From contig CM041292.1 of the NCBI GenBank assembly GCA_023052935.1, forward strand, positions 201,399,799-201,463,798: a DNA stretch of 64,000 nucleotides, given 5' to 3'. Below the pieces are notes generated by a model. That model was given only the letters and a program-made list of their open reading frames with translations, was not told the DNA's origin and made no database searches. Below, one piece after another: positions 8,676 through 55,084 of this stretch (positions are counted from its first letter, which is position 1; every line of letters begins with the position of its first letter). Made by a program: the position numbers and the translations under genes. Source of the DNA: Piezodorus guildinii (taxonomy: Eukaryota > Arthropoda > Insecta > Hemiptera > Pentatomidae).

Positions 8676-9185
8676 TCTTAACAAAGAAATATAAAGTATG
8701 GACTGGTTTCGGTGTAAGGTATCTTAATTATAAATCTATATTACATTTATTATGTTCGAAAATTACATATACCTATAATTTCTGTACTATTCTCCTTTAG
8801 ATAGATATTCGTTCACCAAATATAATTAATATTTTTTTCTATCATTGCTAACACGATAGTATAGTCAATTTTTGCAAATCTACATGATTAAAGGTACATG
8901 ATTTTTAGTGTAGGGTCATCACTCCCTACGACTAATTTTGTGAGTGGCCACCCTTTGGCTGACGGGTCTCACATACTCCGGGGAGAGGCTGTGATTGAAT
9001 CCCCATTTTTTTACATCCTTATAAAAGCCCCGCCGGGACTGGGATTCGAACTCAGAACCTGTAACTTGACAGACTAGCGCGCTAGCCACTCAGCTACGGG
9101 CTCCCCACCGTAAAGGTACTTTAGACCAGGAAAATTTAAAATATCGACATTTAAGCCCTGTCAAACGTAAATCATTCAAGAATTA
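8676..9185 (-). repeat. Diverged H-family repeat split by a SINE
   Basis: 8690-8888 and 9111-9185 match consecutive parts of family H (for example TCTCCTTTAG near 8790 and TAAAGGTACTTTAGA at 9111) in the same orientation as the well-preserved copies at 44950-45820 and 53726-54600. Both ends of the family consensus are missing. The interruption is the SINE at 8898-9110. Confidence 0.6.
8898..9110 (-). mobile_element. tRNA-derived SINE (family S3)
   Basis: Read on the minus strand it begins with a tRNA-like head containing an A box (TAGCTGAGTGGCTAGCGCG) and a B box (GTTCGAATCCC) at about 9030-9100. No 3' acceptor complement follows, so it is a SINE head, not a working tRNA. It is flanked by TAAAGGTAC on both sides (8889-8897 and 9111-9119), a target duplication inside an older H repeat. 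Confidence 0.75.
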
Positions 9186-9189
9186 ATAT

Positions 9190-9430
9190 ATTTTAGACAA
9201 CTATATTACTATTATTATGTTCAGGGAGACAAAAAATTACCTGTAAAAACATTTTTTCTATTTCCACCTTCATTTAGTGATTGAATTCTTTCATTTTGTA
9301 TATTTACTCGATTTTTATTAATTCCAACAACGTGATTTTATTTTTCAATCTATAAAATTAAAAGTACTTTAGAGGTTTTATTAAAGAAACTTTCCACAAT
9401 CGCAATATTTTTCCTTACTATATATTCCAT
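9190..9430 (-). repeat. Second diverged H-family fragment
   Basis: Contains the H blocks resembling TTTACCTG, a TTATTAAT-rich stretch and AAATTAAAAGTACTTTAGAG (near 9355) in family order. It repeats a part already present at 8790-9185, so this is a separate fragment. Confidence 0.45.
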
Positions 9431-13469: not shown

Positions 13470-14030
13470 ATTCAGTAATAAGTTTATGCAGTATTCGTCA
13501 CTTTACAATTTCGTAAAATACATAATATTTTTTCCTAAATTCTCTAGCTTCCCAACGGTATACTATACATCTTTATCACTATTCTCATGTTGGAAAAAAA
13601 ACAACATAATATTGCTCTTTTTTCCTGTATTTGCTTTTCAAATTCGTTCAATATTTAGCCGCTTTTTATTAATGTTTGTGAGATGATATGGTAATTTTTT
13701 TTTCGAATATACAAAATTAAAGATACTTTAGAATTAGAACATTTTTATTCGGAACATAATTGGAAATTCGGTATTAAAGCCCCGTTAGACAATTTAAAAC
13801 ATACATGATACTAAAATTAATTAAATTTCACATCTATAAAGCTATTTTAATCAAAATCGCCAATAAATGAAAAAAAAATTAAAAAGAACAAAATCAAACA
13901 AAACTTCCGATCATCCCATTTATTCGTGTAACATCCCAGGTGTATAATTGTTTTAAAAATGAAATTTCATTTTCGTACGTTTTTTCTTTTTCGTGCTAGA
14001 CACCAGACACAAACACATTAAATGAATCAT
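13470..14030 (-). repeat. Diverged H-family repeat
   Basis: In order it shows the H blocks CTTCCCAACGGTATACTATAC (about 13548), TTCCTGTATTTGC, ACAAAATTAAAGATACTTTAG (about 13712), TCAAAATCG, GTGTATAATTGTTTTAAA (about 13940) and an ACACACA-containing block. The orientation is the same as the copies at 44950 and 53726. Both termini are lost. Confidence 0.6.
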
Positions 14031-15460: not shown

Positions 15461-16019
15461 TATTAAGAAAAACTTAATTAAGTTAAAATTAAAAAAGAAA
15501 AGATGTTAATTACTTTATGCCACCTGATCCCAGTTGAATTGATAAACGTGATACCTTAGGAAAATAAATCCAATAGTTTTATAAAATGAGAACAAATAAT
15601 TTGTCTATTAATTAATACAGTTTCGGAGTCACCGCTGCATTAGAAAAATAGCGGCCGAAACATAGTAATATCATCTAGACACATGACGTATCAAATAATC
15701 CATTAAATTAACTGAAATTTAATATTTTAGACATAATTTTCACAAAAATTGACCAACAAGAAATGCCACTTTATAATCAACATTTTATATCTTTTTACTT
15801 TAATCTCAGAAAGGGCTCTAACGACTTAGCTTAAAAAGATCATCTTATCAATTTTAAACTAAATAGAATTCCCATGAGGGCTTCGTCCTCACTGACATTG
15901 ACTAACAGTTCTTTAGAGCCATAGTTTTTAGATTATTTTCCTTAAAAGTACCTTAAATTTGTTAATTAGATAGAACTAATTATTTCTAGTAGTCAGCATT
16001 AATAAAAGCTGCAAATTAT
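15461..16019. other. No recognised feature
   Basis: AT-rich. The block AGCGGCCGAAACAT at about 15649 loosely recalls the GAAAC half of the hammerhead-like motif but lacks a clear CTGANGA partner. Confidence 0.4.
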
Positions 16020-31305: not shown

Positions 31306-31465
31306 AATGAGAAATTCCATTTTAGTACGACTTTCTATGCTAGACTTGTCACCCACACACTCGCACGCGCACTCACACACTGACCTTTTCGTGAGACTTA
31401 GTTATTTGAACTTAAGGGGCCCTATCACGTGTATTTCTGTTGTAATCTGGAGGCTTTCCAAGTTA
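31306..31465 (-). repeat. H-family fragment
   Basis: Contains the H end-region blocks CACACACTGACCTTTTCG and GTGTATTTCTGTTG in the same order as 45690-45760. It replaces the last part of the LINE. Confidence 0.5.
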
Positions 31466-36645: not shown

Positions 36646-37995
36646 GTTTATAGGCAATTAACTAATACGAAAATCAAGTAATAATTTAATAGAAAATGGC
36701 ATATCACCATTGACTAATTTCAAAACGCTATATCTCTGCTAGTTCTGAATCTATTTCAATGATATTTTTTTCATTTAGTACAAAATTTTACTCTCTATAA
36801 TTTCAATTTTGACCCTTTATCTTAAAAATAAAGAGTTATAAAATTTATGGTAAGTTTATAAAAAATTATTCTCTATTTATTTCAATTATTAGCAGTTTTT
36901 TTGTTTAAAAAATACCAATAAATATTCTGTATATTTAAAAATAGCTGAGTTATAGAATTAAATTAGTTTTGACCGGCTGCTATTTTAACCAGCTGATGAC
37001 AACGTCTAGGTATTAGGACCATCCGCGGACAAACGGATTTTTTACTTTCACTTACTATATATAGTAAGGGGAAGTATTGCGATCGTGAAAATTTTGAATT
37101 CCAGTTTTCAACGGAAATACACGTTTTAGTGTCCCCTGAGTCCAAATAACCAAGTCCCGCGAAAGGGTCAGTGTGTGTGTGGTAACTCCCGGGTGGAAAG
37201 GGTAAGTCCTATGAAACTGAAATTTCATATTTAAGACAACTATACGCCCGAGACGTGACAAAACTTTTTTCATCAAAATGATCATACCGGAAGGGGCACT
37301 TTATACCAGCATTTGCATCTTTTTTCGATTTTCTCAAAAACGGTTCCGACGATTTTGTTTTAAACTCGCTATATCAATGTAAAATTTAATGAGCTTTAGT
37401 ATCATGTAGGTTTTTAAAATGGTCTGACAGGGCTTAAATGCCGATATTTTAAATTTTATTTCCCTAAAGTACCTTTAATTTTGTAGATTCAATAAAAATA
37501 ACTACATTATCTTTTTAACACTCATAAAAAACAGGTAAATATATAAATTGAATAAATTCGATACCCAACTAAAGGAGAAAACAGAAAAAATATTTTATAA
37601 TGCAATTTTTCGTTTTTGAACATAAGATCAGTAATATACATGTATGATATACCGTTGGAAAGCTAAAGATTTTAGAAAAGATATTATCTCATACACAAGC
37701 TTTTAAAAGTGAATAGATAGTGATAAACAGCCGATAAAACTAACTGATTATTTTAGATAATAATATAATAGATTTTTTAATAAAACACATGTTTCTATAT
37801 AAATTCGATTTAATTAATTCTTTAATGGTTTCTCACATTTTTATCTCTAACTGAATTTGAAAATTCTTTCTTTGATTTTAAAAATGTTCTTTGTTTTAAG
37901 TTTGTTATTCATTATTCGGATTCTGGGTATCTTGAAACGTTATCCCTAAAATTTTGAGAGGGAGGGAGTAAATTTTATTTTTGGGGGGTACCAAA
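36646..37995 (+). repeat. Repeat Y split by H copy 1
   Basis: Y runs 36646-37040 and resumes at about 37896-37995 (TTATTCATTATTCGGATTCT, ATCTTGAAACG). The interrupted site GGACAAACGGATTTTTT / GTTATTCATTATTCGG is continuous in the other Y copies (34130-34170, 36360-36400). Confidence 0.6.
37040..37895 (+). mobile_element. H-family element, copy 1 (truncated end)
   Basis: Left end: ACTTTCACTTAC at 37044, inside the palindrome CTTACTATATATAGTAAG. Contains the GT microsatellite (37170-37182) and all internal H blocks. The other end lacks the GTAAGTGAAAGT and CCCGCACCAGA blocks, so it is cut there. Plus here means the palindrome end comes first. Confidence 0.7.
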
Positions 37996-38381
37996 ATATT
38001 GCACTCTTTCTAAACGCATAATATGATATTAAATGATGTCATAGAATATATTAAACATTCTAAATGTACTGTGATATCAGATATTCAGACAGAATATTTG
38101 GAAAATTCGTAGTTGATAAATTCCAAAATAAAGGTTTGTATTATATTGTGGCGGAAGGGGTAGGGGTAGATGGGAGTACATGTGACGGATGTGAGTGACA
38201 AGATACGGGAGAGCGGATCTCGGGGTGCACCCTAATATTGAAGCTCAATGCAGCCAGTTCTAGATACCTGCCTCCTTTATCTCAGAAATAATTTTATTTG
38301 TATCATTCAGTTAGAATAGTTATTTCAAAAAATAAACCATTGAAACTGATTTTTTTTTTGTTTTCATTCATAGGAACATTA
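37996..38381. other. No recognised feature
   Basis: Includes a GC-richer patch with G-runs (38148-38250), unassigned. Confidence 0.4.
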
Positions 38382-38626
38382 TCTATACTAATATTATAAA
38401 GCTGAAGAGTTTGTTTGAACGCGCTAATCTCAGAAACTACTGGTTCAAATTAAAAAATTCTTTTTGTGTTCGATAGTGCATTTCTTGAGGAAGACTATAG
38501 GCTGTATAACATCACAATGCGACCAATAGGACAATCAGAGGAAAATCTGAAAAAAACGGGAAAAAATTGACTTTGCATCCCAACGATTCCAAATGATTTA
38601 CCTTTTAATCTATACTAATATTATAA

Positions 38627-38741
38627 AGCTGAAGAGATTACCTCCGGGTAATAGAAGGACAAAATGTGACATATATACATATTATATTTGTATTTGTATT
38701 TTGTTCGAAAATAAAACCAGAGGGTAAGAAAAAAAAAAAAA
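38627..38741 (+). repeat. Short poly-A retroposed insert in the Helitron
   Basis: The insert starts after CTGAAGAG and ends in about 15 A and a C before a second CTGAAGAG (38742-38749). Helitron sequence resumes there. The 8-bp duplication and tail point to LINE-type insertion of an unidentified RNA. Confidence 0.65.
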
Positions 38742-39053
38742 AACCTGAAGAGTCTGTTTGTTTGAACGCGCTTATCTACTAAATCTATGGAAACTACTGA
38801 TTCAAATTGAAAAATTCTTTTTGAGTTGGATAGCCCATTTATCGAGGAAGGTTATAGGCTATATAACATCACGCTGCAACTAATAGGAGCGAAAAATTAG
38901 TGGAAAATCTGGGAAAAAACGGGTGAAATCAACCACGCATCCCAACGATTCTAAATAATTACCTTTTAATTTTAAAATAATTCAGTTTCCAGTTAAGTCA
39001 TCTTTTGCCGTAACAATTAATAAATCACGTGGCAAACATTTAAACACGTAGGA

Positions 39054-39340
39054 GATTTGGCCCGAACTAGATATCAATCCTTCTATGACAAACTCCATTC
39101 CCACTCCAACCCACTAGTTTCAACCCTTGCTTACTCTTCGATTCCTGATAATCCTCCGAGGCGTCTGAAAAGAAGATGGCCTCGAGACCTTCTTGTTTAA
39201 AATAGTTACTGGAGTGCTTCCATTGGGTTGCTCCTCAACAAGTCTGTCTCATGTGATTTTTCTTTTAGCATATTTACTTGTTGTAATATAAATTACAGTT
39301 GTAAATTTCAATAAATAAATATAAAAAACAAAAAAAAAAA
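39054..39340 (+). pseudogene. Jockey-type LINE JB, 3' end with target duplication
   Basis: Encodes the last ORF2 part (LARTRYQSFYDKLHSHSNP-like, NPPRRLKRRWPRDLLV) then the 3' UTR and an A tail. AAACACGTAGGA (39042-39053) and AAACACTTAGGA (39341-39352) flank it, a 12-bp target duplication with one change. Confidence 0.85.
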
Positions 39341-39451
39341 AAACACTTAGGAATCGATTTACGTCAAGAATAGGTTGTGGATAAAATCAGCATATCTCTG
39401 AACAAGAAAATAAAACCAAATATATCATTTACGCAGAAGTACTTCAAAATA

Positions 39452-40400
39452 TTAGGTTGTCCGAAAAGTTCGTAGAGATTTTAAAAATAAAATTTACCTT
39501 TTATTTTGTCCACCTTGCCTTTAATCCTCATGGAATTAAATATGTTTACACACTGAATTCGTCTTTATTTTTAAGGCTCAGTAGTGTAGTTTATTGCAAA
39601 CCAACATGAGTGACGATTCGGTTCATTTTCGGCATATTATGCTGTTCTTTTTGAAAAAAAGTAAAAAAGCATCCCAAACTGCAAGAAAGATTGGTGTAGT
39701 GTATGACAACAATTCAATTGCTGATAGCATGGTTCAGAAGTGGTTTTCGCGGTTAACATAAGGAGATTTCAATTTGGAAAATTAACCCCGGGGTTGCCGG
39801 AGCTCAACTCTTGACATCGAGGATATTATGACGGTCATCACAAACAATCGACGAATTACTGTCCGTGAGATAGCTACGTTATTATACATTTTGAGCTCCT
39901 ACCACAATACCATGCTATAAATACGGACTTTTACTGCGCCCAGTTAGATAGATAGATTGAAGGCAGCAATTGAAGAGAAACGGCCAGAGTTGGCAAATCG
40001 GAAAGGAGTGCTATTCCACCAAGACAACGGTAGGCCCCATGTGTCTTTTAAGACTCGGCAAAAGTTATTAAGCTTCAGATGGGAGGTTTTACCTCACCCG
40101 CCGTACTCTCCTGACATTGCTCCTTCGGATTTCCATCTTTTCCGTTCCCTCGAAAATTTTCTTCAAGGGTAATTCCTACTCTTTAGAAGATGACTTCAAA
40201 ACGGACCTTTTATTGTTCTTCAGGATTAAGTACAGTGATTTTTGGAAAAAAAGGATAATGGACTATTCAAGGCGTTGGAAAAGGTAATCGCTAACGTTGG
40301 TAAATATTTTGTAGATTAAATAAATAAATTTTAAAACAGCTTAAGTTCATCAATTTTAATTTTTGTCCAAATTTCTCTACGAACTTTCCGGACAACCCAA
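39452..40400 (+). mobile_element. Mariner transposon M2, deleted and dead
   Basis: Terminal inverted repeats of about 30 bp (TTAGGTTGTCCGAAAAGTTC left; the right copy begins TTGGGTTGTCCGG when reversed) with TA at both outer ends (39450-39451 and 40401-40402). Length 949 bp against about 1.3 kb in intact mariners. Transposase pieces: N-terminal MSDDSVHFRHIMLFFLKKSK (39606) and C-terminal 39957-40172. Confidence 0.9.
39606..40172 (+). pseudogene. Mariner transposase, internally deleted
   Basis: The helix-turn-helix N-terminus is readable to about 39760, then stops occur. The second aspartate is in FHQDNGRPHVS and the third in YSPDIAPSDFHLF, the D34D mariner signature. The first catalytic aspartate region is gone, with the deletion near 39930. 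Inactive. Confidence 0.85.
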
Positions 40401-40477
40401 TACATTCTTTTAAAAACGTCTTAATAGCGATCATAATAACAGAAAATGGCGCTGACTAAGTCGCGAAAAACAGCTAG

Positions 40478-40955
40478 TTTATAATAAAAATAAAATAAAC
40501 AAAAAATAAATCCCTTACCCATAAAATTTAGGGGCTTACGTTTCAAGATATGAAGAATTCGAACTAACCGAATCTCTCCAAAAGGTCTGTGATTTGTGTG
40601 TGTTTAAGTTTAGCTTGAAAACAAACTTTCTTACGCAACTGAAATATCATATTTAAAACTAGCATACATCTGATATGTTACATAAATTGTTTATATATTA
40701 GTATTAAATAATTACGGGTGTGACTACTTCCAAGTATGGCATTTTAGCTATGATTAAATAAAATTATGATCTGACTTAAAATTCCGTTGTACATAAAAAA
40801 AAAAAAAAAAAATTGTAGGTTTATTTGAGATGTATTATAGTCATCGTGTACTCGAATCCAAACATTTTTAGGATCGGAATACTTTCTTTAACTTTATATT
40901 TCATATATAGGTAAGTAAAAGTAAAATAAATGTACAATTCTAAAAAATAACTATT
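40478..40955. repeat. Diverged Y and H fragments
   Basis: The block TTACGTTTCAAGATATGAAG (about 40538) is an inverted Y piece. 40590-40690 has H-like GTCTGTG...GTGTGTG and TCATATTTAAAACTA blocks. Too diverged for clear ends. 16-base A run at 40797. Confidence 0.4.
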
Positions 40956-41762
40956 TTTACTTCCATTAACTATATATATATATATAATCGTGAAAATTTT
41001 CGAATTCCAGTTTTCGACGGTAATACACGTCTTAGGGTCCTCTGAGTCCTAATGACCAAATCCCAATAAAAGGTCTGTGTGTGTGGTAACTCTAGATCAC
41101 ACAAACCATAAGTCGTATAAAACTGAAATTTTAACTATACGCCCGAGATTTTACATCAGCTTTTTCACTAAAAGCAGCTGACCGGAAATCCTACTTTAGC
41201 ACCTTTTTACGATTTCATCAAAAAACGGCTCTAACGATTTTGATTAAACTAGCTATATCGATGTAAAATTGGACGGACTTTATATCATGTAGGTTTTTCT
41301 CTGATTGGAATAGTCTGACAGGGTTTAAATGCTAATATTTAAAATGTTCTTCCTCTAAAGTACCTTTAATTTTGTAGATACTAAAAAAATAACTATTATA
41401 ATCTTGTTATCAACGGTAAAAAAAAAAAGGTAAACATATAAGTTGAACGAATTGGATATATAACTAAAGGAGAAATCAGCATTTATTTGTTTTGAACATA
41501 ACAATAGTAATATACATGTATAATATAACCTTGGAATGCCAAAGATTTTAGAAAAAATATTATCTTATACACAAGTTTGTAAATGTTGATATAGAATGAT
41601 GAAAAGCCGATAATAATATAATAGATTATTTAATAGAACACACGTTTCTATAGAAATTCCATTTAATTAATTCACTCATTTTTATCTCTTACTGTATTTA
41701 AAAATTCTGTAATCGATATTAAAAACAGAGGTAAGTGAAAGTCGGGTGTTGCCCGCACCAGA
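40956..41762 (+). mobile_element. H-family element, copy 2
   Basis: It has both ends: a degraded ACTTCCATTAACTATATATA start and GTAAGTGAAAGTCGGGTGTT then GCCCGCACCAGA at the end (41731-41762). Internal blocks are as in other copies, with about one-fifth of positions changed by eye, so it is older than copies 4-6. Confidence 0.7.
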
Positions 41763-42329
41763 TTTTTTCGTTTCGAGTGTTTCATATAGGAGATATTATT
41801 TAATAATTATAATATTGTATGTAAGGCTAATTAAATTGTTTATTCCAATTTAATAATTGTTTAGAGACATGGAGATAATTGATTTTGGCCGGAAGAAGAT
41901 CCTCAGAGAAGGTAGGTTGAGATAAGAGGGAGAGGAATAGAGAAGTGGGAGTGTTGTGGTTTCTATTATTGCTCCAGTAACGAGGTGGTTTCGGCTGACT
42001 CCAGCTACTCCAGCGGCTCCAGGAGGTAACAAGGCTCACATTCGGAATAAATAGGAGGCTCACTTAGCCCGACTCTCTTGTACGGCGGGACCATTGTCAA
42101 TAGCGGGCTTCTGTTTCAGCCATGTCGGAGTATCTGAGGGCTATTGTATAATTTAATTAGCTCATATCCTATTTCAGATACGAAATAGGATATAATAGAC
42201 ATGATGATCATAAGATTTCCTTTGAATAACACAACTTTCCACAATAAATCTATACAAAGTAAGAATATAACACTATAATTACATATGAAATAAGTAGTGC
42301 CCATGAGAAAATAATTCAATCATGAAATT
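41763..42329. other. Unassigned, with GC-richer patch
   Basis: 41880-42115 is GC-richer, with CTCCAG repeated at 42000, 42009 and 42018. The 78-codon minus-strand frame there has no known motif. Confidence 0.35.
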
Positions 42330-42599
42330 TTCAGGAGTTTTTTATGAGAAATGTGTCCGTGGCAAGGATAGCATACGAACGCAAAGTCGTACGAAACTAA
42401 AATTACATATAAAAAATTAGTTCTTCTGAAGCGATACTTACTACCGTTTATTTTATTCCTTTTTAAGATTTTTTTCTTAATACAGCCCCAAAAATTCTTA
42501 TTAAAATTCCAAATATCACTGGATAATTAAGTGATTTTATTATTTACAAAGTCTTAAAGCTTTGATATTTGGTTTCACGGATTTAGTAGTAATATTTTT

Positions 42600-42840
42600 T
42601 TATTTATAGAGATTTATTACAATTTGTTTCATAATGAACAGTAGTAATAGTGAGATGATACACATTCATACAATATATACAGAAAATAATGATAACGTCA
42701 AATTACATAAAATCGGAAATGAATAAATTCAAATATATACAAAACAATAACAATTAATAAAACAAAAAAGAGACAACAAACAAATCAAAACAACCTGTAG
42801 GAGAGATAAATACAAAGTTGGAAAATAAATAAATATCAAT
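42600..42840 (-). mobile_element. Jockey-type LINE JA, 3' UTR fragment
   Basis: Reverse match to 415-660, with the tail end at left. Contains the GAACAGTAGTAATAGTG and AACCTGTAG-AGAGATAAATAC blocks. Confidence 0.75.
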
Positions 42841-42891
42841 AATATTGTAGTAATATAAAATTATAAATCGATAGCAAATTATGACTTGTTT

Positions 42892-44573
42892 TTACTTTCA
42901 CGTACATATGTATATAATATAGGGAAAGTAAAGCGATCGGGGAAAATTTCTAATCCCAGTTTTCGTCGGAAATACACTTTTTAGGTTCCCCCTGAGTCCA
43001 AATGACCATGTCCCGAGAAAAAAGGTCTGTGTGTGTGTGGTAAGTCTAGTGGAAAAACCAAAAGTCGTACGAAAGTGGAATTCCATATTTAAAACCACTA
43101 TACGCCCGAGATGTTACACCAACGTTTTCATTAAAATCGGCTAACTAGAAGGGCCACTTAATACCATGCATTTTGCACCTTTCCACGATTTTATCAAAAA
43201 CGGCTGTAACGATTTTGATTAAATTCGCTAAATTAATGTTAAATTAATTGGGCTTTTATATTATGTAGGTTTCATTCTGATAGAAATAGTCAGACAGCGC
43301 TTAAATGCCGATATTTTAAATTGTCTTCTTCTAAACTACCTTTAATTGTGTACATTCCAAAACAATAACCGTATTATTTTAATGACATTGATAAAGGAAT
43401 GTAAGATATACAAGTTGTACGAATTTGATGACTAACGTAAGGATAAAAGATCAAAACTATTTTTTTTTTTTAATAATAAGAACAGTAATATAGACGTATA
43501 AAATACCGTTGGAAAGAGAAAGATGTTAGAAAAAATATTATCTGATACACAAAGTTGTAAAAGGTAATATAAAGTGACGAATAAGGAATAAACTTATTAC
43601 TCATTAACAATTTAATATAGTTATATTATTTAATATAAATCTGAATCATTCCAACAAAAATTAGTACACGTTTTATTAAAAACAATTTAAAATATTTTTC
43701 AAATTGATTTTAACATAATAATAATAATAATAGGCTTACCGAACCCGAAGGTTCGATGCCGATACCACCAAACTTCGCCTGCACAGACTCGTCCAATGTT
43801 CACCGGTCAAGCCCAAGCTCCCGAGATCAGCCTTAATGCAATCCTCCCATCGACGCTTCGGCCTACCTTTCGGACGCCTACCAGTCGGTTCCAATACCAA
43901 CTTTCTCGGAATCCGTTCCTCACCTAGCCCAACAACTTTACGCGCCCATTTGAGTCTCCGCGATGCTATTAACTCAATTATATTCACAGGGTACAAACTC
44001 AGCAATTCCGCGTTGTGCAACCTTCTAAACTCCCCAGTGGCCTCATCTCTCTTCGGACCAAATATTTCACGCAGTACCTTATTCCCGAAAACCTTAAGCC
44101 GTTGTTCATCCTTCAAAGTAAGCGGCCACGTTTCACATCCGTAAAGACCGTCGGAAGAATAATAGTTTTATAAATTCTAACCTTTAAGTTTTTATACAGA
44201 AGCCGCGACCTAAGTAATTTAGCAACTGAATGATAACACGCATTTCCCACCTTAAACCGGGACTTTATTTCTTCCTGGATTTCATTTTTTCTAGTTATCA
44301 TTGAACCTAAATACTTGAATTTCTCTACGTGTTCAAAAGGATGACCTGAATTATTAATATCACCAAGATCGCCACCGTTATTGCTACCAATCATATATTT
44401 CGTCTTATCGGTATTTAATTCGAGACCTATTTGTTTGCCGGTATTTATTAATACACTTGTATTTATTTGTATGGTTTCCGTGTCTTCACCTAGCAGTACC
44501 AAATCATCGGCATACCCCGAAAATTGATTTTAACAGTCGTGGTAAGTGAAAGGCGTGTGTTGCCCGCACCAGA
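42892..44573 (+). mobile_element. H-family element, copy 3, split by an RTE-like LINE
   Basis: H sequence runs from the ACTTTCACGTACATATG-type start to 43715 and resumes at 44521 through GGTAAGTGAAAGGCGTGTGT and GCCCGCACCAGA. The interruption is a LINE with a 15-bp target duplication. Confidence 0.75.
43716..44520 (-). pseudogene. RTE-like LINE (family R), 5'-truncated, with target duplication
   Basis: The minus strand encodes PEYADDLVLLGEDTE (44510 downwards), FKYLGSMITRKNEIQ, then after a frame change CETWPLTLKDEQRLKVFGNK through RRWEDCIKADLGSL, and ends GGTTCGGTAAGCC(TAT)n. AAATTGATTTTAACA flanks it at 43701-43715 and 44521-44535. The simple-repeat 3' tail is the RTE hallmark. The only clear lesions here are the frame change near 44115 and truncation, so it is rather young. 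Confidence 0.9.
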
Positions 44574-44949
44574 TTTTTCTTATTAATGAGTCCGCCTCAA
44601 CCCATAGTGTTACTGGCATCAAGAAAGTTAATTATACTCTGTTATAGTTTCCTCCTTTTTTCAAAGTTTCTCCTAGTACGGATGCTTGTTTTTCTTCGTT
44701 ACCAAGTATTCGATTTTAAAATGAGTTCGCAGCCTATTTAATTTACAGGTGATTTCAATAAAAACTTTTTGTAAACATTTTATTCGATTGTATAAGACCT
44801 ATTTTAATACAATACATATTGCCATCATTCAGATTTTTTTTTTTTTTTTAATTTGGTCATTATCAAATGTTGAAGGACGACCCCACTTTAACTACGAACG
44901 AAATGAGGTAAAGTAAGTGGATTTCTTGAAGTTTTTTCATATTAAAAAA
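44574..44949. other. No recognised feature
   Basis: AT-rich, with a T run at 44836-44849. Confidence 0.4.
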
Positions 44950-45820
44950 TCTGGTGCGGGCAACACACGGCTTTCACTTACCTCCGTCAATTGAAGAATT
45001 TTCAAATACAGTTAGAGATAAAAATACGTGAAACTATTAAGGAATTAATCAAATTGAATTTATATAGAAACATGTGTTTTATTAAAAAATCTATTATATT
45101 ATTATCTAAATAATCAGTTAGTTTTATCTTCTTCTCGTCACTCTCTATTAACTTTAAAAAGCTTGTGTATGAGATGATATTTTTTCTAAAATCTTCAGCT
45201 TTCCAACGGTATATCATGTATATTACTGCTCTTATGTTCAAAAACGAAAAATTGCATTAAAAAAATATTTTTTTTGTTTTCTCCTTTAGTTGGGTATCGA
45301 ATTTATTCAATTTATATATTTACCTTTTTTTTATCAGCGTTAACAAGATAATATAGTTATTATTATTGAATCTACAAAATTAAAGGTACTTTAGAGAAAG
45401 AAAATTTAAAATATTGGAATTTAAGCCCTGCCAGACCATTTTTATCCAGATAAAACCTAAATGTTATTAAAGCCCATTAAATTTTACATCGATATAGCGA
45501 GTTTAATCAAAATCGTCGGAACCGTTTTCGAGAAAATTGAAAAAAGGCGCAAAATGCATGTTATAAAGTGCCTCTTCTGGTAAGCTCATTTTGATGAAAA
45601 AAGTTTTGTGACGTCTCGGGCGTATAGTTGTCTTAAGTATGAAATTTCAGTTTTATAGGACTTACCGTTTCCGCCCGGGAGTTACCACACACACACACAC
45701 ACAGACCTTTTTGCGGGACTTAGTGGACCCTAAAACGTGTATTTCCGTTGAAAACTGGAATTCGAAAATTTTCACGATCGCAATACTTCCCCTTACTATA
45801 TATAGTAAGTGAAAGTAAAA
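44950..45820 (-). mobile_element. H-family element, copy 4 (complete)
   Basis: Begins TCTGGTGCGGGCAACACACG, has the subterminal repeat ACTTTCACTTAC (one change), (CA)n at 45686-45702, the palindrome CTTACTATATATAGTAAG at 45792-45809 and ends GTAAGTGAAAGTAAAAA. No coding frame. It is followed by 273 bp that recurs after copy 5. Confidence 0.8.
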
Positions 45821-46093
45821 AAATGTGAATGATAAGTGCTATAAAAACAACTTCTTTGATATTGAAAAAAAAAGGTACATGTGAAAAAAAAAGGTACATG
45901 TGAGACGTTGAATGTACACACTAGCCTTCATTATAACTTTGAAACATTATTTTAAAAATCAGTATTGTTCATATGACGTCACCAAGCCATGTTTATATTT
46001 ATATGACTTAATTTCTAAAAATATTATGTATATCATTTAAAACATCCTGAAATAAGATAAAATAAAGAGTCATATCACTGGTATTATAAAAAA
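45821..46093. repeat. Spacer of the tandem H unit
   Basis: Nearly the same sequence follows copy 5 (46991 to about 47255), including TATGACGTCAC and ATGTTTATATTTATATGACT. Confidence 0.8.
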
Positions 46094-46990
46094 TCTGGTG
46101 CGGGCAACACACGACTTTCACTTACCTCCATTTTTAAAATCAATGAAAGAATTTTCAAATACAGTCAGACATAAAAATACGTGAAATTATTAAGGAATTA
46201 ATCAAATTGAATTTATATAGAAACATGTGTTTTATTAAAAAATCTATTATATTATTATCTTAAATAATCAGTTAGCTTTATCTTCTTTTCATCACTCTCC
46301 GTTAACTTCTAAAAGCTTGTGTATGAGATGATATTTTTTCTAAAATCTTTAGCTTTCCAACGGTATATCATTCATGTATATTACTGCTCTTATGTTCAAA
46401 AACGATAAATTGCATTAAAAAAATATTTTTTCTGTTTTCTCCTTTAGTTGGGCATCGAATTTATTCAATTTATATATTTACCTGTTTTTCATCAGCGTTA
46501 ACAAGATAATCTAGTTATTATTATTGAATCTACAAAATTAAAGGTACTTTAGGGGAAGACAATTTAAAATATCGGCATTTAAGCCCTGTCAGACCACTTT
46601 TGTCTAAATAAACCTACATGATATTAAAGCCTATTAAATTTTACTTCGATATAGCGAGTTTAATCAAAATCGTCGGAACCGTTTTTGAGAAAATCGAAAA
46701 AAGGTGCAAAATGCATGGTATAAAGTGCCTCTTCTGGTAGGCTCATTTTGATGAAAAAAGTTTTGTCACGTCTCGGGCGTATAGTTGTCTTAAATATGAA
46801 ATTTCAGTTTCATAGGACTTACTGTTTCCGCCCGGGAGTTACCACACACACACAGACCTTTTTACGGGACTTGGTTATTTGGACTCAGGGGACCCTAAAA
46901 CGTGTATTTCCGTATTTTCGAAAACTGGAATTCGAAAATTTTCATGATCGCAATACTTCCCCTTACTATATATAGTAAGTGAAAGTAAAA
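46094..46990 (-). mobile_element. H-family element, copy 5 (complete)
   Basis: Same ends and blocks as copy 4, starting exactly 1144 bases later. The palindrome is at 46962-46979. Intact subterminal repeat ACTTTCACTTAC near 46115. Confidence 0.85.
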
Positions 46991-47255
46991 AAATGTGAAT
47001 GATAAGTGCTATAAAAACAACTTCTTTGATATTGAAAAAAAAGGTACATAATTGAGACATTGTGAATGTACACAGTTTGCCTTCATTATAACTTTGAAAA
47101 ATTATTTTAAAAATCAGTATTGTTCATATGACGTCACGAAGCCATGTTTATATTTATATGACTTAATTTAAAAAAATATTATGTGTATCATTTAAAACAT
47201 ACAGCAATAAGACAAAATAAAAAGTGATATCACTGGTATTATAAAAAATACTGAA
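46991..47255. repeat. 3' flank shared with the copy-4 spacer
   Basis: It matches 45821-46090 up to GGTATTATAAAAAAT, where the first unit passes into TCTGGTGC (copy 5 start) and this one into ACTGAAAC. Confidence 0.8.
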
Positions 47256-47689
47256 ACTATAAAGCTATCCTCGAATTATTTTATCTGATTAAAAAAAGAA
47301 TAATCCTACCTATGATATGAAGTGATGACACAAATGATCTCACTCAAAAGAAATTCTCACCTGAAAAAGAAAAAAAAAGTTACATAAGACTTGCTAAATA
47401 CATCTATAACTTATGTAAATCTTCATTAACAGGATGAAGACATAGCTGAAAAGATAATTTTACCTGAATCTACTTTTAATTGTTATAGATTAATTTAAAG
47501 TGTTGCTTTTAATAACATTAGTCTGTTATCAGAAACAGTTACCAAATCATTTTTTTCTACATTCCTGGGTTATTTTTCCCGTCTCAGAATATAAAATATT
47601 ACCATTGAATAGAAATATAAAAATGTCGAATCATCACCGCAGAAATAATTGGCAGGAACTATACAAATTCATCTGTCCTAGCATATGTC
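47256..47689. other. No recognised feature
   Basis: AT-rich, unassigned. Confidence 0.4.
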
Positions 47690-48552
47690 GATATATATTA
47701 ATAGCACGAACCCTTCAAAAGCGCTCAAGCAAGTAGAGAAAACTTGTGAGATTATAAAGAACCAACTAAATACCTTAAATATCCAAATAAAGCCATCTAA
47801 AACTGACTGCATTATATTTTCTTTCCAAAAAATAAGAAAAAACTGCCGACTAAATTTCAAATAGAAAATTCACAATTCAAGATATCCAGAAACATCGTAT
47901 ACTTGGGTATGAAACTTGATAGGCATCTAAAATTTAACAACCATATCAATTCGAAATTATCAAAAGTTAGACAAATAACCTATAAATTTAACCATCTCTT
48001 AAAAACTCCTAATTTAAGTTTTAGACTGAAACTACTAATTTACAAAAGTGTGATCAGACCTTCAATATTATACGGAGCACCATTACTAATCCATTCTTCA
48101 GATAACTCAAAAAAAGAAACTACAGCAATTCCAAAATGGCGTTTGAAAGAAGATTGCAAGAAGAACTACATTTGAAAAAGTAAAGGCAGAAAGGCTTCAT
48201 TTACTATTTAATATTCCTAAAGTGAGTGAATTCATAGATAAAAGAAGACATAACTTTTATAATTCCTTAGAAGTTCTTCCAAACCAGGTTTTTAGTAGGC
48301 TTAAGTTTCCACCAGCTCCTCAGAGGTGGCAACATAGTGTAAGCTAGGGTTTAAGATTAGCCTAAGTCTGGAAGTGTCAAGATTGAAGTGATCCCCATCA
48401 CCAAGAGGAATAGCAAATCAGTGATAGCACAAAAACATAATCTCTAACAGAAATATCCTTAAAATGTATCTATATATAGTAAAAGGAAATTATTCAGAAA
48501 ATATTTTAGCAAAACATGCAACTAAATTGGGGTTATGAAAAAAAAAAAAAAT
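47680..48552 (+). pseudogene. Jockey-like LINE, RT end and C-terminus (family JC)
   Basis: A degraded AYVD box (about 47682) is followed by KTCEIIKNQLNTLNIQIKPS. The frame at 47903-48175 gives MGMKLDRHLKFNNHINSKLS and IRPSILYGAPLL. A third frame to about 48346 ends KFPPAPQRWQHSVS. The 3' UTR ends in 14 A near 48550. Three frame changes; dead. Confidence 0.75.
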
Positions 48553-48854
48553 CATATCCATTCATTCGCATTAGTATTCTGTAGAGCAATTCAGAATGAG
48601 ATTATATTTTAAAGGTTTTTTATAAGATATAAATATGAATAGACGATTCGAGAGTATATTTCTTATGGCTTTGTGCAGCATTTCCTTTACAATGTTAGAA
48701 AATAAAAAAAAGTTTTCTGTTAAAATTCGATAGTTTATTAGAATATTATAATAATACTAGGTCAGGCATTAATTATACGTGTTAAATCAACTCGTGCACA
48801 ACTAAGACTACATAGAAATGAATGTTTTTGTTTTTTTCTAACAAATATAAAAAT
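48553..48854. other. No recognised feature
   Basis: AT-rich, unassigned. Confidence 0.4.
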
Positions 48855-49065
48855 GCTGCCAATTACACAGTAGTTTATTATTTCTAAATAACTTTTTATA
48901 AGGCTGTAGATAGGCAATTAAGTAATATAAAAAGCAATAAATAATAAAAGTAAAATAGCATATCACCACTGCTAACTCGAACTGCTTAATCTCAGATAGT
49001 TCTGAGACAATTTCAATGATTCTTTTTTTTATTTTGTAGACAATTTAATTTTAGTATTTATTTAT
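48855..49065 (+). repeat. Fragment of repeat Y
   Basis: Blocks AATTACACAGTAGTTTATTATTTC, GATAGGCAATTAA and AGCATATCACCACTG match the left half of Y. Confidence 0.6.
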
Positions 49066-49070
49066 TTATT

Positions 49071-49990
49071 AATAAGGCGGTACTCAGGGCAGCATTCTGG
49101 GAGCCATCCTTTACACAGTTTATACAGCTGATATCCCAACCCATCCTAACACATTCCTTTCTACCTATGCCGATGACACTTGCGTGCTATCAGTTCATAA
49201 TGATCCTAGTATTGCCTCTCAAACTCTCCAATCCCACATCAGAGACCTTGAGGTATGGTGTCAGAATTGGAGAATTAAAATCAATTCCAATAAATCCCAT
49301 CAAATTACCTTTACCCTTCGTCGAAATCCTATGACATCCTGCCCTACAGTTTCCTTTAATGATATTCCGCTTGTCCCGGTTGAACAGATCCGCTATTTAG
49401 GACTCCTGCTTGACAAACGTCTTACATGGAATCCGCATACAAGACTGAAAAGACAAGAAACTGCTCGACGTTTTCGGCTGCTCCAACACTTACTAGACAG
49501 ACGCGCTAACGTTTCACTTAACTACAAAAGACTCATTTACATGACAATCATAAGGCCTATCTGGACCTACGGAGTTGAGCTATGGGGCTCTACTAAACCA
49601 TCCACTTCTTCCCGTATCCAATCCTTATAATCCAAAATCCTTCGTAAAATCCTCAACGCTCCTTACTTTGTCACGATCAAAATCATTCATAAAGACCTCC
49701 AAGTTCCGTATGTAGCCGATTTGGCCCGTACCAGGTATCATTCCTTCCATGACAAACTCCATTCCCACTCTAATCTACTAGTTTCAATCCTTGCTTCCTC
49801 TACAATCCCTGATAATCCACCGAGGCGTCTGAAGAGAAGATGGCCTCGAGACCTTCTTGTTTAGATTGATCACTAGAGTGCTGCCAATGGGCAGTTTCTC
49901 TTCACGTTTTTCATGTACATATTCTTTATCAGCATATTTACTTGATGTATTGTAGTATACAGTTGTAAATTTCAATAAAATATAATTTAA
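49071..49990 (+). pseudogene. Jockey-type LINE JB, RT palm to poly-A
   Basis: The longest JB copy. It opens at GGTQGSILGAILYTVYTADI, then TYADDTCVLSVHND (catalytic YADD at about 49168), RYLGLLLDKRLTWNPH, RPIWTYGVELWGSTK. One TAA (49628-49630) interrupts before SKILRKILNAPY, and the frame then continues to NPPRRLKRRWPRDLLV (TAG 49864). The 3' UTR and A tail end near 49995. The endonuclease and front half of the RT are absent through 5' truncation. Only one stop, so it is comparatively recent. Confidence 0.88.
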
Positions 49991-49995
49991 AATAA

Positions 49996-50310
49996 AAAAA
50001 AATTAATTAGGAGAAACACCTCACATTTTTCTCCATATTTAATAATGACCGAGTTATCAGGGCATCACATCTCTTATAACTTGTAACTTGACCATTTAAG
50101 ATTTTTTTTCTCTCTTTGTTCATCGCGTTGTCTTGATCTTAAAAGTCTTTTCGATTTTTCTCCATCTTTAATAATAACCGATTTTTATAGCCGATTACAA
50201 CTATTATAATTTGTGTCCTAAATATAGAGATCAATATTTAAAAAAAAAAAAAATTATCATCGCACTTTGCTTTTGATGAAATTATGTAATTATCCTTAAC
50301 AATTTATTGC
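49996..50310. other. No recognised feature
   Basis: AT-rich. Two similar phrases (TTTCTCCATATTTAATAATGACCG at 50029 and TTTCTCCATCTTTAATAATAACCG at 50157) form a short direct repeat. Confidence 0.45.
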
Positions 50311-50360
50311 TTTGCTAACGTTTCGACCCCCACAGTAGATCATCATCCGGGCACCTGATG
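50311..50360 (-). repeat. Degraded hammerhead-like motif, class A
   Basis: GTTTCGACCCCC...GATCATCATCCGGG (50320-50351) has the same order as 10593-10621 but a changed CTGATGA box. Confidence 0.4.
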
Positions 50361-50988
50361 GTACAGCGGTTAGTAAAGGAGTCGCGTAGCTACTGTAACG
50401 CTAAAGAAATGCCTTTAGAATTCCCTAACGGTTTGATATTTATTGTAATACCTTTTATTTTATTTGCTCAGCTTGAAAGCCGACTACAAAAGGAATCGCA
50501 TTACATCGATAAAAATTTTGTGGATAAAAAAAAAGTTATTTATCACGATACTAAAAGTTCTCTACCATTATTCCCCTTTTTATTCAGACACTTTGGTACT
50601 ATAAAGGAAGGGTCTGTAAGAAATAAAAGGCGGTGTGTTTTTGTGGCCGAAAGGAGTAGGCCTTTATAAGGGAGGTTCTTTTGATTTAAAGCAATGTCCC
50701 ACTGGCGTTTGGCTCCTTCACGGCAAACCCAGGATATATTTAGGGCCAGGATCGATTCTAGCCTTCTCCCAACATCTCATCTCCCTCTTTTTAGTCATAA
50801 AGTAGAAAAACTAAAATGAATTTCTACAGAATTATTTCATTCCTGAAATCCGTATTATCACATTCTGAGGATATCGGATAACGTACTGAGATGGAACAAA
50901 CATTTAGTTAAATAGCTCCAGCTTGTTAAAATAAGTTTTACCATCACTTGTATAAATATTTGATTTTTATTTTTTTTCTATGAATCTA
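50361..50988. other. No recognised feature
   Basis: A 103-codon frame (50358-50669) has no motif I recognise; a hydrophobic stretch (FIVIPFILFAQ) is visible. Probably chance, but it is one of the longer unassigned frames. Confidence 0.3.
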
Positions 50989-51420
50989 TTGGTTTCTGTC
51001 ACATGAAATGTCCGTTCTCAAGGTAAGGGATTTTTATTAAAAATGCGACCTGAAAACCAGATAATTTTATTCGAAGTATTTACCTTCTTTTTCTACACAT
51101 TTTTCCCAACGTGACACCAACTTTTTTATTCGCGAACTAAAAAACTCTGAGCTTTGAAGTGAAACAAAATCTGAAAACGCTCTTTTCACTTGATCGTCAT
51201 TTTCAAAAAATTTTCCTTTGACGAAGTTGTCTAAATTCCTGAACAGGTGGTAATCTGTTGGAGACAAGTCGGGAGAATATGGTGGGTGCGGAAGAACTTC
51301 GTAGCCCTGTTCTTTCAATTTTTGCACGGTATGTTTTGAAACATTGGGTCTAGCTGCTGCTCAGTGAGATCATGAGGTGCCCATGTATCAAGCTCATTTT
51401 TTTTATTATTATCCATTTTG
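50989..51420 (-). pseudogene. Mariner relic M1 with transposase C-terminus
   Basis: The left end TTGGTTTCTGTCACATGAAA resembles the M1 terminus and follows TA (50987-50988). The minus-strand frame 51067-51327 gives YEVLPHPPYSPDLSPTDYHLF, with the third catalytic D, and the C-terminal helix RWEKCVEKEGKYF. Upstream, LDTWAPHDLTE (about 51366-51400) is the mariner WVPHEL-type motif. The rest of the transposase and the right terminus are absent. Confidence 0.8.
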
Positions 51421-51956
51421 TTCTTAATACGTGCTATGTAAATATCATTTGTAATCTGGTTTTTATAAGCGTTTTTCCAAATCGTTGCATATTTGTCAAA
51501 TTCGGCCGGTTATCTTGGCATAGGAACTCGCTTTTCGTCCGTCGCTAAAAGGGTTAACCATAAGTCTTTCCAACATATGTAATATCTTAAGTTACAGATG
51601 ATAAAATCTGTTATATAGTTATACTTAAGTCTTAAAATACCAGAGAATTAACATTTGCGATGAACAGTTTTGTTACTCCTAGGGGACCACTCGTCCCAGA
51701 ATTAAGTTGATTTTGATTTCATTTCAAATGTATGACTAGCAGTCTCCAATTTCACCAGCCTCCCTCTTTTCCTGTTCATATATTTTTCCGTTATATATTC
51801 TCACATATAATTGTTAGTTTAATATTACATTAATTAAAAATAAAAATAAATTATTTTTATTGTTTTTCGTTTCTAATGATTATTTTCTTTATATATCCTA
51901 CCTATGTTCTTTTTATATATTGCTGTGAAATTTCCAACCCCAACTCCCTCGGGGCT

Positions 51957-51960
<4 letters not shown>
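51421..51960. other. No recognised feature
   Basis: AT-rich, unassigned. Confidence 0.4.

Positions 51961-52032
<72 letters not shown>
51961..52032. repeat. (TA)n tract
   Basis: About 72 bases of TA repeat. The frames reading poly-YI across it are artefacts. Confidence 0.95.
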
Positions 52033-52036
<4 letters not shown>

Positions 52037-52059
52037 CGTCAAATATCACTTCAAAATTG

Positions 52060-52400
52060 TTTAAAAAATTGTTCACATATTGTTCTTAACATTTAACCAT
52101 TTGCTTAGTTTCTGTTTAAATATTCTTATTATCATTTTACATTTAATTTGATGTTTTTAACATATTATACGATATTACTGTCACCATATTATTTATTATA
52201 TACCTAACGTATTATTAGGTTTCTAATTACATTGTTGTTATCTTGTTTATAATTACATGGCTGTTATCTTGTTTCTCTCAGCCCTGATAAAAGCCCACTG
52301 TATAGGCCAAAACTTCGGCACACAATTAAAATAAGTTCTACTTGTTAATGCATGTTTCTTTCTAATGACCGCGCCCCCAACCACCTTCCTTATATAATAT
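52060..52400 (+). repeat. Hammerhead-like repeat, class A, degraded core
   Basis: Shares the T-rich lead-in with 28130-28330 and 34450-34620, then CTGATAA (52284-52290), GCC...GGCC and AAAACTTCGG, then TGACCGCGCCCCCAACCACC (52358). The core boxes have mutated. Confidence 0.5.
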
Positions 52401-53279
52401 TCTCAACGGTCAACCAAACTCCATAATTAAACATTTACACGCATTATTCAAGCTTAAGCCCATCTTCGTTTCCTCTGGAATGGAAAGTGATTATAATAAA
52501 ATCTATTTTTTCCCCAAGATCTAAATATTTTGGCTTGTAGGACGCAGTTGTGGGGTTACAAAAGAATACATTACACATCCTAGAACACTGATTAAAATCA
52601 ACTCAACATCAAAGCCTAAAATGTCTCTTTCTATTCTGTCATTTTTTTTTCGATTAGCATAATAAGCAAAAGGAATCCAGAAGATGTCCACATTAATATG
52701 GATCAGAAAAGTTTTGATATTCCTCGAATATTCAAATTATTTTTAAAGAGCACATAAGAATGCTCGAAAGAGTGGTCTGGAGTAGAAAAGTAAAGTTTGA
52801 GTTAAAAAAGTTTTCAAGCTGTTCCTTGAGACAAGTCAGTTAAACCTCTTCTGTAGAGGAAAAGTTTAACCAAGCGGTGCATTCAAAGAGGTTCCAAACA
52901 GTCGCTTACTAGCAAAGTTACAGTAATTGGTTATGTCCGCTGTTGTTTCTGCTTTGTTGGTCAGCATTGATATAGCTAACTCCGGAGTTTACTATTAGTC
53001 TCATATCCACATCCCGGGGTAGTTATGTTAGCTTTCCTAAGGTAATTGTGAAGCACCTAGTACTTCATTCTCAATGTAATCGCGCTTTGTTAGCAACCCG
53101 TTTTAATACATAAATATGGCTCAATCCATTTGAATCGTCCAATTTTTAATAATTTTGCCGCTCAGCAATTTTGATTTTCATGATTTTTGGACCAGTTATT
53201 CTTTATTCTTTCCTGATGTTGATGAGAGTATATTATACAGTTTTGGTCCTTACAGCATCTTATCTATGTAGCCAAGAAA
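52401..53279. other. No recognised feature
   Basis: About 880 bases without a recognisable gene or repeat. Confidence 0.4.
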
Positions 53280-53720
53280 AGTATTAAAAAAATTCACGAC
53301 TTGGTCATTTGGGCGCAGCGAACCTAGTAGCAATCCCAGTCAGCCAATTTTGGTGAAAAGTTTTGTGTAACAACTTGGTCCTTAAATATGAAATAAAATC
53401 TTAAATAAGGGTTAATATCTTGTTTTAATTACAACTCTTCCGAACAAACTACAAACAAGAAAACTCAATGAGAAAATCGTAAAAAACTGTAAAATTGCAT
53501 TGTATAAAGTAGCACTCCCGGTCAGCCAATTTTGATAAAACTCGGTGTAACATCTCGGGCGTATAGTTGTCTTCAATATAAAATTTTAGTTCCGTACAGA
53601 TCTTCGTTTTCGTGCAAAGACTTACCACACACAGACCTTTTTGCAGGACTTGGTGATTTGGGCTTATGGGACCCTAAAACGTATATTCTGCAGGAACTTG
53701 CCCTTATTTTTTATAAAAGT
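53280..53720 (-). repeat. Diverged partial H element
   Basis: H blocks CATCTCGGGCGTATAGTTG (about 53552), TTACCACACACAGACC and GGACCCTAAAACGTATATT occur in family order, next to copy 6. A further weak match at 53290-53400 suggests two overlapping remnants. Confidence 0.6.
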
Positions 53721-53725
53721 AAAAA

Positions 53726-54600
53726 TCTGGTGCGGGCAACACACGACTTTCACTTACCTCCATTTTTAAAATCAATGAAATTATTTTCAAAAACAGTTAG
53801 AGATAAAAATACGTGAAACTATTAAGGAATTAATTAAATTGAATTTATATAAAAACATGTGTTTTATTAACAAATCTACTATATTATTATCTAAAATAAT
53901 CAGTTAGTTTTATGTTCATTTCATCACTCTCTATTAACTTTTAAAAGCTTGTGTATGAGAAAATATATTTTTTTTAAATATTTAGCTTTCCAACGGTATA
54001 TCATACATGTATATTACTGATCTTATGTTAAAAAACGAAAAATTGCTTTAAAAAAATATTTTTCCTGTTTTCTCCTTTTGTTGGGTATCGAATTTATTCA
54101 ATTTATATATTTACCTGTTTTTCATTAGCGTTAACAAGATAATATAGTAATTTTAATTGAATCTACAAAATTAAAGGTGGTTTAGAAGAAGAAAATTTAA
54201 AATATCGGCATTTAAGCCCTTTAATCAGAATAAAACCTAAATAATATTAAAGCCCATTTAATTTTACATCGATATAGCGAGTTTAATCGAAATCGTCGGA
54301 ACCGTTTTTGAGAAAATCGAAAAAAGGTGCAAAATGCATTGTATAAAGTGCCTCTTCTGGTTAGCTCATTTTGATGAAAAAAGTTTTGTCACGTCTCGGG
54401 CGTATAGTTGTCTTAAATATGAAATTTCAGTTTCATAGGACTTACCGTTTCCGCCCGGGAGTTACCACACACAGACCATTTTGCGGGACTTGGTTATTTG
54501 GACTCAGGGGACCCTAAAACGGGTATTTCCGTTGAAAACTGGAATTCGAAAAATTTCACGATCGCAATACTTTCCCCTTCTATACATAGTAAGTGAAAGT
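53726..54600 (-). mobile_element. H-family element, copy 6 (complete)
   Basis: TCTGGTGCGGGCAACACACG start, ACTTTCACTTAC at 53747, short (CA)n (54463-54474), imperfect palindrome near 54577-54592 and GTAAGTGAAAGT end at 54589-54600. Confidence 0.82.
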
Positions 54601-55084
54601 AAAAAAAAGGGATGAATATCATGTTTTATTTTAAAATCTCCCTAAAAATTAAGAAAAGTCAACGAGGTAATTGGAAAAGAAAACTGTTTAGCTCTGCAAG
54701 AAAACTAAAACGAAGCTAACATAAAACTAAAACTATATGTTTTTATCATTGAACCTCTTTTCTCTAGTTCTAAAAGAATTGGAGGGTTGTCAAGAGAGAA
54801 ATTTGGCTGGTGGCGTGGGGTACCGCATTGCAGGAGGTGGCTCCAGGCTCCAGACGATATGCTCTTGGCAAGGTTCCCCCTAACGTGAAATAGAAGGCGC
54901 CCAAGAGCTCCAACTTTTGTCTCTTGTTGACCCACACCCACGGCCAAAATATTATCCTAAAAGTATTACTATCTGGTTCAGCTGGGTTTGCGGTGCTCAT
55001 TTCTGAAATAAAGTGGAGTTCGATAAAGTCAAGATCACTCTTACAACGTGGGAGTATTTAGAGGGAAAACACTGGAAAATCTTT
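54601..55084. other. Unassigned, with GC-richer patch
   Basis: 54770-54990 is GC-richer. Two overlapping minus-strand frames of 76-80 codons lack known motifs. Confidence 0.35.

Follow-up and report, generated by a model that had tools for sequence, protein, structure and literature searches.

The closest described relatives of the element considered here are the DINE-1 and HINE elements, in which 0-4 nt separate the 5' end from a subterminal repeat that is adjoined by a partial inverted repeat, the 5' block holds a microsatellite, the 3' repeat is internal, and insertion is into TT (PMC4067079, PMC2374699; published elements are described, here and below, from the sections of the cited papers that we consulted). 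We analyzed a repeat family, H, in a 64,000-nucleotide stretch of the genome of the pentatomid Piezodorus guildinii (assembly GCA_023052935.1, contig CM041292.1, positions 201,399,799 to 201,463,798 of the forward strand), called the window below and numbered from its first nucleotide. Judged by its structure, H is very likely a non-autonomous, putatively rolling-circle element of the Helitron2/Helentron (DINE/HINE-like) type, about 890 bp long, and as such a new, very abundant member of an element class that is already known. The initial annotation of the window had proposed this class, which is supported by the subterminal repeats, the microsatellite, insertion into T-rich sequence and the absence of target duplication beyond T's. 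We also found an excess of H insertions directly before sites that resemble the element's own 5' end.

A highly abundant repeat family

In the host assembly (1.203 Gb in 434 contigs), the 20-base 3' end of H has 24,419 exact matches, and its 27-base palindromic 5' end has 41,350 matches with at most two mismatches; the reversed-pattern control gave 0 in both cases. Within the window, 5 matches to the 20-mer end (up to three mismatches) compare with 0 in 100 shuffles, and 4 matches to the palindrome end with a shuffle mean of 0.07. The shuffles, together with the genome-wide counts against their controls, exclude a chance origin of the repeat. H-like matches make up 10.1% of the window by BLAST with the consensus, and the 41,350 recognizable 5' ends would account for roughly 3% of the genome were each to belong to a full-length copy. 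The 22-mer 3' end had 0 matches in IMG/VR viral contigs, where records very near the host may be missing, and a 16-mer of H, searched as a text string, had 0 in open-access papers.

Forty-eight loci on contig C1, covering 52 of the 100 listed places of the 20-mer end, were fetched (individual loci carry L numbers). These yielded 31 whole-length aligned copies at first, and 35 once later loci were added and the limit was relaxed slightly. The consensus of the 35 near-complete copies is 891 bp; 30 of them diverge from it by 2.5-10.8% and five by 17.5-22.3%, while pairwise differences range upward from 1.5% in the closest pair, with a median of 10.9%. An older subfamily is recognizable from 18 local 5' ends that carry a different inner stem, CTATATAT-GAA-ATATATAG, inside the same repeat. 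H has been active in more than one wave.

Anatomy and orientation

Read with the palindrome end first, a typical copy is TTTTTA-CTTTCACTTAC....GCACCAGA-TTTTTT. A T-rich target is followed by (A)CTTTCACTTAC, which is the 5' subterminal repeat and part of a hairpin; about 100 bp later comes (GT)n and then a non-coding body; the 3' subterminal repeat, GTAAGTGAAAGT, is followed by CGTGTGTTGCCCGCACCAGA and about 4-5 T. The repeats are thus placed asymmetrically, the 5' one 0-1 nt from its end and the 3' one 20 nt plus the T's from the other. The 12-base subterminal inverted repeats and the variable microsatellite reported in the initial annotation were both recovered, the latter as a GT tract near one end. 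The lack of a coding frame was likewise upheld by a scan of 44950-46990, where three open reading frames (ORFs) of at least 60 aa occur, the longest 79 aa.

Borders were tabulated for 29 of 32 copies, three having been excluded beforehand for lacking A at -1 or T at +1. Position -1 is A in 29/29; positions +1 to +4 are T in 29/29, +5 in 28, +6 in 25 and +7 in 14. The border A may belong either to the element or to the target. At three loci, L012 (3' end at 2001), L036 (2001) and L047 (3001), exact H 3' ends with about 21-50 bp aligned adjoin mostly unrelated upstream DNA; these may be rearranged H copies or members of other families that have just the 3' end in common with H.

The GC-rich end had been taken as the 5' terminus. 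We reverse this assignment, placing the 5' end at the palindrome and the 3' end at the GC-rich terminus, because the near-terminal repeat, the partial inverted repeat and the 5' microsatellite of DINE-1/HINE, so far as the consulted descriptions go, fit the palindrome end. With the palindrome end as 5', the strong hairpin therefore lies at the 5' end. Its stem of 12 bp contains a single mismatch (z -5.7, 0/200 shuffles), and the hairpin is kept in the older subfamily despite the different inner stem; the best preserved case (L023) folds with 18 bp, and several others have decayed. The hairpin earlier assigned to the 3' terminus is accordingly this 5' inverted repeat, and any hairpin at the true 3' end would be weak.

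Target sites and alternative element classes

Of 38 joined copies, 7 had a local empty site, in several cases at a flank identity of just 74-81%, and a separate comparison gave others. The two clearest are at L028 and L026. At L028, the empty site GAGC-TTTTTT-ACTTTCCC corresponds to the filled site GAGC-TTTTT-A[H]TTTTTT-ACTTTCCC. At L026, where the insertion is nested in H sequence, the empty site is ATATTATTATCT and the filled one AATATTA[H]TTTTTCATTT. Filled sites hold about 2-8 T's more than empty ones, and for L026 these can lie only on the 3' side. H thus inserts into T-rich sequence, with extra T's on its 3' side. Matches between the 5' and 3' flanks at lengths 2-10 are no commoner than in shuffled pairs, and the lengths of the T-runs on the two sides of H are uncorrelated (rho 0.01, n=29); there is therefore no duplication beyond T's, in agreement with the empty sites and with the earlier claim that H inserts without target duplication.

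These observations bear on what else H could be. A miniature inverted-repeat transposable element (MITE) of a cut-and-paste transposon has terminal inverted repeats and a fixed target duplication, and T-rich DNA on both flanks, as at L028 with 5 T's before and 6 after, could be read as a TTTTT duplication. The nested L026 copy, however, has ATATT before it and TTTTTC after it, flank matches and T-run lengths behave as just described, and one inverted repeat lies 20 nt inside the element; with no fixed duplication and one internal repeat, we reject this explanation as very unlikely. The canonical Helitron (Helitron1) begins with 5' TC, ends in 3' CTRR and inserts between A and T. The genome does contain Helitron-like Rep genes (L049, L050), and the end at which the initial annotation started the element begins with TC; yet in neither direction does the other end read CTRR (it is ..GAAAGT or ..CACCAGA), and H goes into T-runs rather than simply between A and T, so a non-autonomous Helitron1 is highly improbable and was set aside. 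A retroposon resembling a short interspersed element (SINE) has the least to recommend it: read in the direction first annotated, a copy does terminate in a short A-run, but A-runs stand on both sides, the flanks are not duplicated, the window contains no tRNA-like gene and inverted repeats occur at both ends. We rejected it and consider it to have almost no likelihood.

Head-to-tail junctions and target choice

Among the local loci, 6 of 89 3' ends stand directly before another 5' end in the same direction, whereas there is no tail-to-tail arrangement among the 89 3' ends and, in a count made for these loci only, no head-to-head arrangement among the 89 5' ends. Across the genome, there are 291 matches to the exact head-to-tail pattern (control 0) and none to the tail-to-tail pattern. 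By rough estimates from the T-run density of the window, about 5 junctions would be expected under random placement and about 85 if T-runs alone were preferred. Spacing is also largely constant: counted by eye, 68 of 100 listed junctions have exactly six T's, CCAGA-TTTTTT-ACTTTC, while exactly six T's occur on the 3' side of single copies in 26/91 and on their 5' side in 3/29.

Individual insertion sites were also compared with the background. A T-run followed by ACTTTC (at most one mismatch) is found, in excess, at 10/77 insertions versus 85/3507 other T-runs (p 3e-5). After removal of recognizable H 5' ends the counts are 5/72 versus 39/3461 (p 0.002), and against the window's non-H T-runs 5/72 versus 5/519 (p 0.004). 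ACTTTC-like targets also precede DNA that is not recognizably H, at L028, L009, L020 and L032.

Taken together, the head-to-tail excess and the recurrent spacing suggest that integration recognizes a site similar to the 5' terminus of H itself. The simplest account is that a Helitron2/Helentron Rep cuts the target at a sequence like its 5'-end cut site in the element. On this account, a Rep-helicase supplied in trans would nick the donor within the T's before ACTTTC, giving rise to a single-stranded, probably circular, H intermediate that would be terminated after the 3' T's and then joined at a T-run, preferably one followed by ACTTTC, the donor cut sequence. If targets are chosen by the 5' cut-site sequence, older copies and look-alike sites would therefore be preferred, and head-to-tail arrays would arise in one direction only. 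We judge the chances evenly balanced that the protein mobilizing H picks its targets by this mark (T-run plus ACTTTC), mostly with single-base precision, and so produces the one-direction arrays. Some features of the evidence weigh against it: the ACTTTC test was devised after the pattern had been noticed, its thresholds were unequal (a minimum of 3 T's for targets but of 5 for background runs), and 5 of the 10 ACTTTC sites correspond to old H 5' ends. Another, the insertion at window position 53726, which is counted among the five non-H cases, precedes an old H fragment whose 5' end has possibly decayed.

A competing interpretation keeps the element class and takes the junctions as rolling-circle multimers or circle junctions instead of insertions beside older copies. 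CCAGA-TTTTTT-ACTTTC is also the product expected from a joined circle, successive junctions at two places on C1 are 898 and 962 bp apart, or about one unit, and tandem Helitrons have been reported (PMC2267711, PMC5148889). Against this, the neighbors at the 4 of 6 local junctions where they are comparable are just 71-86% identical, and these junctions are therefore not fresh dimers. In 3/6, the copy upstream is close to the consensus (90-98%) and its downstream neighbor remote from it (74-77%), although the L048 junction at 7831 shows the opposite order, with 77% upstream and 84% downstream. The ACTTTC-like targets before non-H DNA also speak against multimers, which we regard as a rather doubtful source of the junctions. 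In our limited search of the tandem-Helitron literature, such a number of junctions with fixed spacing was not described (PMC2267711, PMC5148889). If target choice does follow the 5' end of the element itself, multimeric transposition would not be required to explain tandem Helentron clusters, an idea open to testing in any HINE-rich genome.

Search for an autonomous partner

The initial annotation had called for a genome search for a Rep-helicase element with the ends of H. A Helentron-type Rep, a helicase and a probable endonuclease are indeed present, but no copy was shown to carry those ends. Genome matches numbered at least 13 for Helitron_like_N (20 candidates scored), at least 4 for DUF6570 (4 scored), at least 19 for PIF1 (25 scored) and at least 14 for a Helentron-like Rep query (20 scored). 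The Helitron-like (L049, L050) and Helentron-like (L054, L055, L057) Rep lineages are clearly distinct. Parts of four Helentron-like loci were read: L054 with L062/L063, L055 with L065, L057, and L064. The locus at C2:74.62 Mb has kept an open 360-aa PIF1 frame plus an endonuclease-like end, and the gene at C2:72.01 Mb (L065) is cut off within the endonuclease region by a 122-bp satellite array (L065 ~311-2000). Further Helentron-type loci lie at C2:116.62 Mb and C1:54.52 Mb. At L054, the Rep region is split over four frames, neither a PIF1 nor an endonuclease match was obtained, an inverted-repeat search did not find the relic's own ends, and H copies lie within its 20-kb surroundings. The endonuclease-like piece of these genes is presumably an endonuclease, going by its motifs; a PDB sequence search with it returned pentatricopeptide-repeat chains alone, taken as spurious, and Pfam gave no match for the first piece of the region and a sub-threshold PF14529 (E 0.14) for the second. 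A borderline Rep match adjoining an H copy (L061) was taken as chance, given so many H copies.

The class membership of H is judged by structure, and several observations count against the assignment. The partly read Helentron-like loci yielded no autonomous partner with the ends of H, and the H 3' end is absent from the ~2.4 kb after the C2:74.62 Mb locus, the sole one read downstream. The 3' end folds at best into a 5-bp stem (z -0.46), and visual inspection of the 33 different end sequences represented among 91 ends showed no compensating changes in this stem; some Helitron2 elements, for their part, have no 3' stem-loop (PMC5148889). A 2-bp TT duplication remains compatible with the target-site data. 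Finally, the 3' repeat lies 20 nt plus T's from the end, versus 38-60 in the mite HINEs (PMC4067079).

Copies of H in the window

BLAST with the 44950 copy and then with the consensus placed the six copies and five fragments first annotated in one family. All six copies described as good align, although two are not intact. The copy at 37042..37886 (+ strand; strands give the 5'-to-3' direction with the palindrome end as 5') is 93% identical to consensus 1-856 and has the 5' palindrome end, but its alignment ends about 35 bases before the 3' end, and the TCTGGTG.. end is missing. The copy at 42892 extends as far as 44573 (+), and about 0.9 kb of other DNA (43639-44522) interrupts it, with consensus 1-755 at 42895-43638 and 841-891 at 44523-44573. 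The intervening DNA is non-LTR (long terminal repeat) retrotransposon-like, and a related reverse-transcriptase frame occurs in L062.

The near-complete copy at 40956..41762 (+) belongs to the older subfamily; it has both ends, with one mismatch in the 20-base end and the older-type 5' pattern, and is 76% identical to consensus 38-891. Complete copies on the minus strand lie at 44950..45818 (3' end 44950, 5' end ~45817, from BLAST and end alignment), at 46094..46988 (95% to consensus) and at 53726..54602 (93%), the last directly 5' of an older fragment in the same direction at 53469..53687 (-; 77% to consensus). The 44950 and 46094 copies are 90% identical and sit in a tandem duplication of a 278-bp flank plus element, the flank at 45816..46093 (-) being repeated beyond the 46094 copy (past 46988) with 244/278 identical positions (88%). 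The duplication starts at the six-T run following the H 3' end and may have originated by recombination between T-runs. Consensus alignment further located old fragments at 8727..8897, 9111..9425, 13522..14017 and 31370..31451, all on the minus strand, and one absent from the initial annotation at 15737..15983 (+; 65% over 253 columns).

Other repeats are interspersed with these. A mariner-like remnant was recognized by eye at 39460-40400, where GGTTGTCCGAAAAGTTCGTAGAGA and, near 40390, its inverse form a pair of almost identical inverted ends separated by about 0.9 kb, and two copies of a different dispersed repeat starting CTATACTAATATTATAAAGCTGAAGAG lie at ~38390 and ~38610.

Comparison with known elements

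H shares with DINE-1/INE-1 of Drosophila the near-terminal 5' subterminal repeat and its adjoining partial inverted repeat (PMC2374699, PMC4067079), as well as the microsatellite in the 5' block, TT or T-rich insertion, the lack of an ORF and a very high copy number. It differs in that its repeat, ACTTTCACTTAC, has 12 nt rather than the 13 nt of the listed DINE-1 repeats, its microsatellite is GT rather than GTCY, no central tandem repeat was noticed, and its 3' stem-loop is weak beside DINE-1 stems of 7-11 nt. The HINE families of mite and mosquito resemble H in their palindromic 5' subterminal repeat, variable border T's and T-rich targets without duplication (PMC4067079); no partner sharing the ends of H was found here.

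Helitron2-type FoHeli elements of Fusarium likewise have asymmetric inverted repeats, with ~20-40 bp between the 3' repeat and the end of the element; repeats of 12 bp, as in H, occur in FoHeli1/2, which terminate in ATTTT, and FoHeli3-5 have a 5' hairpin, as in H, and no 3' hairpin (PMC5148889). The FoHelis described either code for Rep-Hel or are derivatives with few copies (PMC5148889), whereas H is non-coding, its ends number in the tens of thousands and such junctions in the hundreds. One FoHeli copy lies just upstream of another's 5' end, as in the H junctions (PMC5148889), and where the literature consulted treats few cases, H offers a large natural data set on Helitron2/Helentron site choice.

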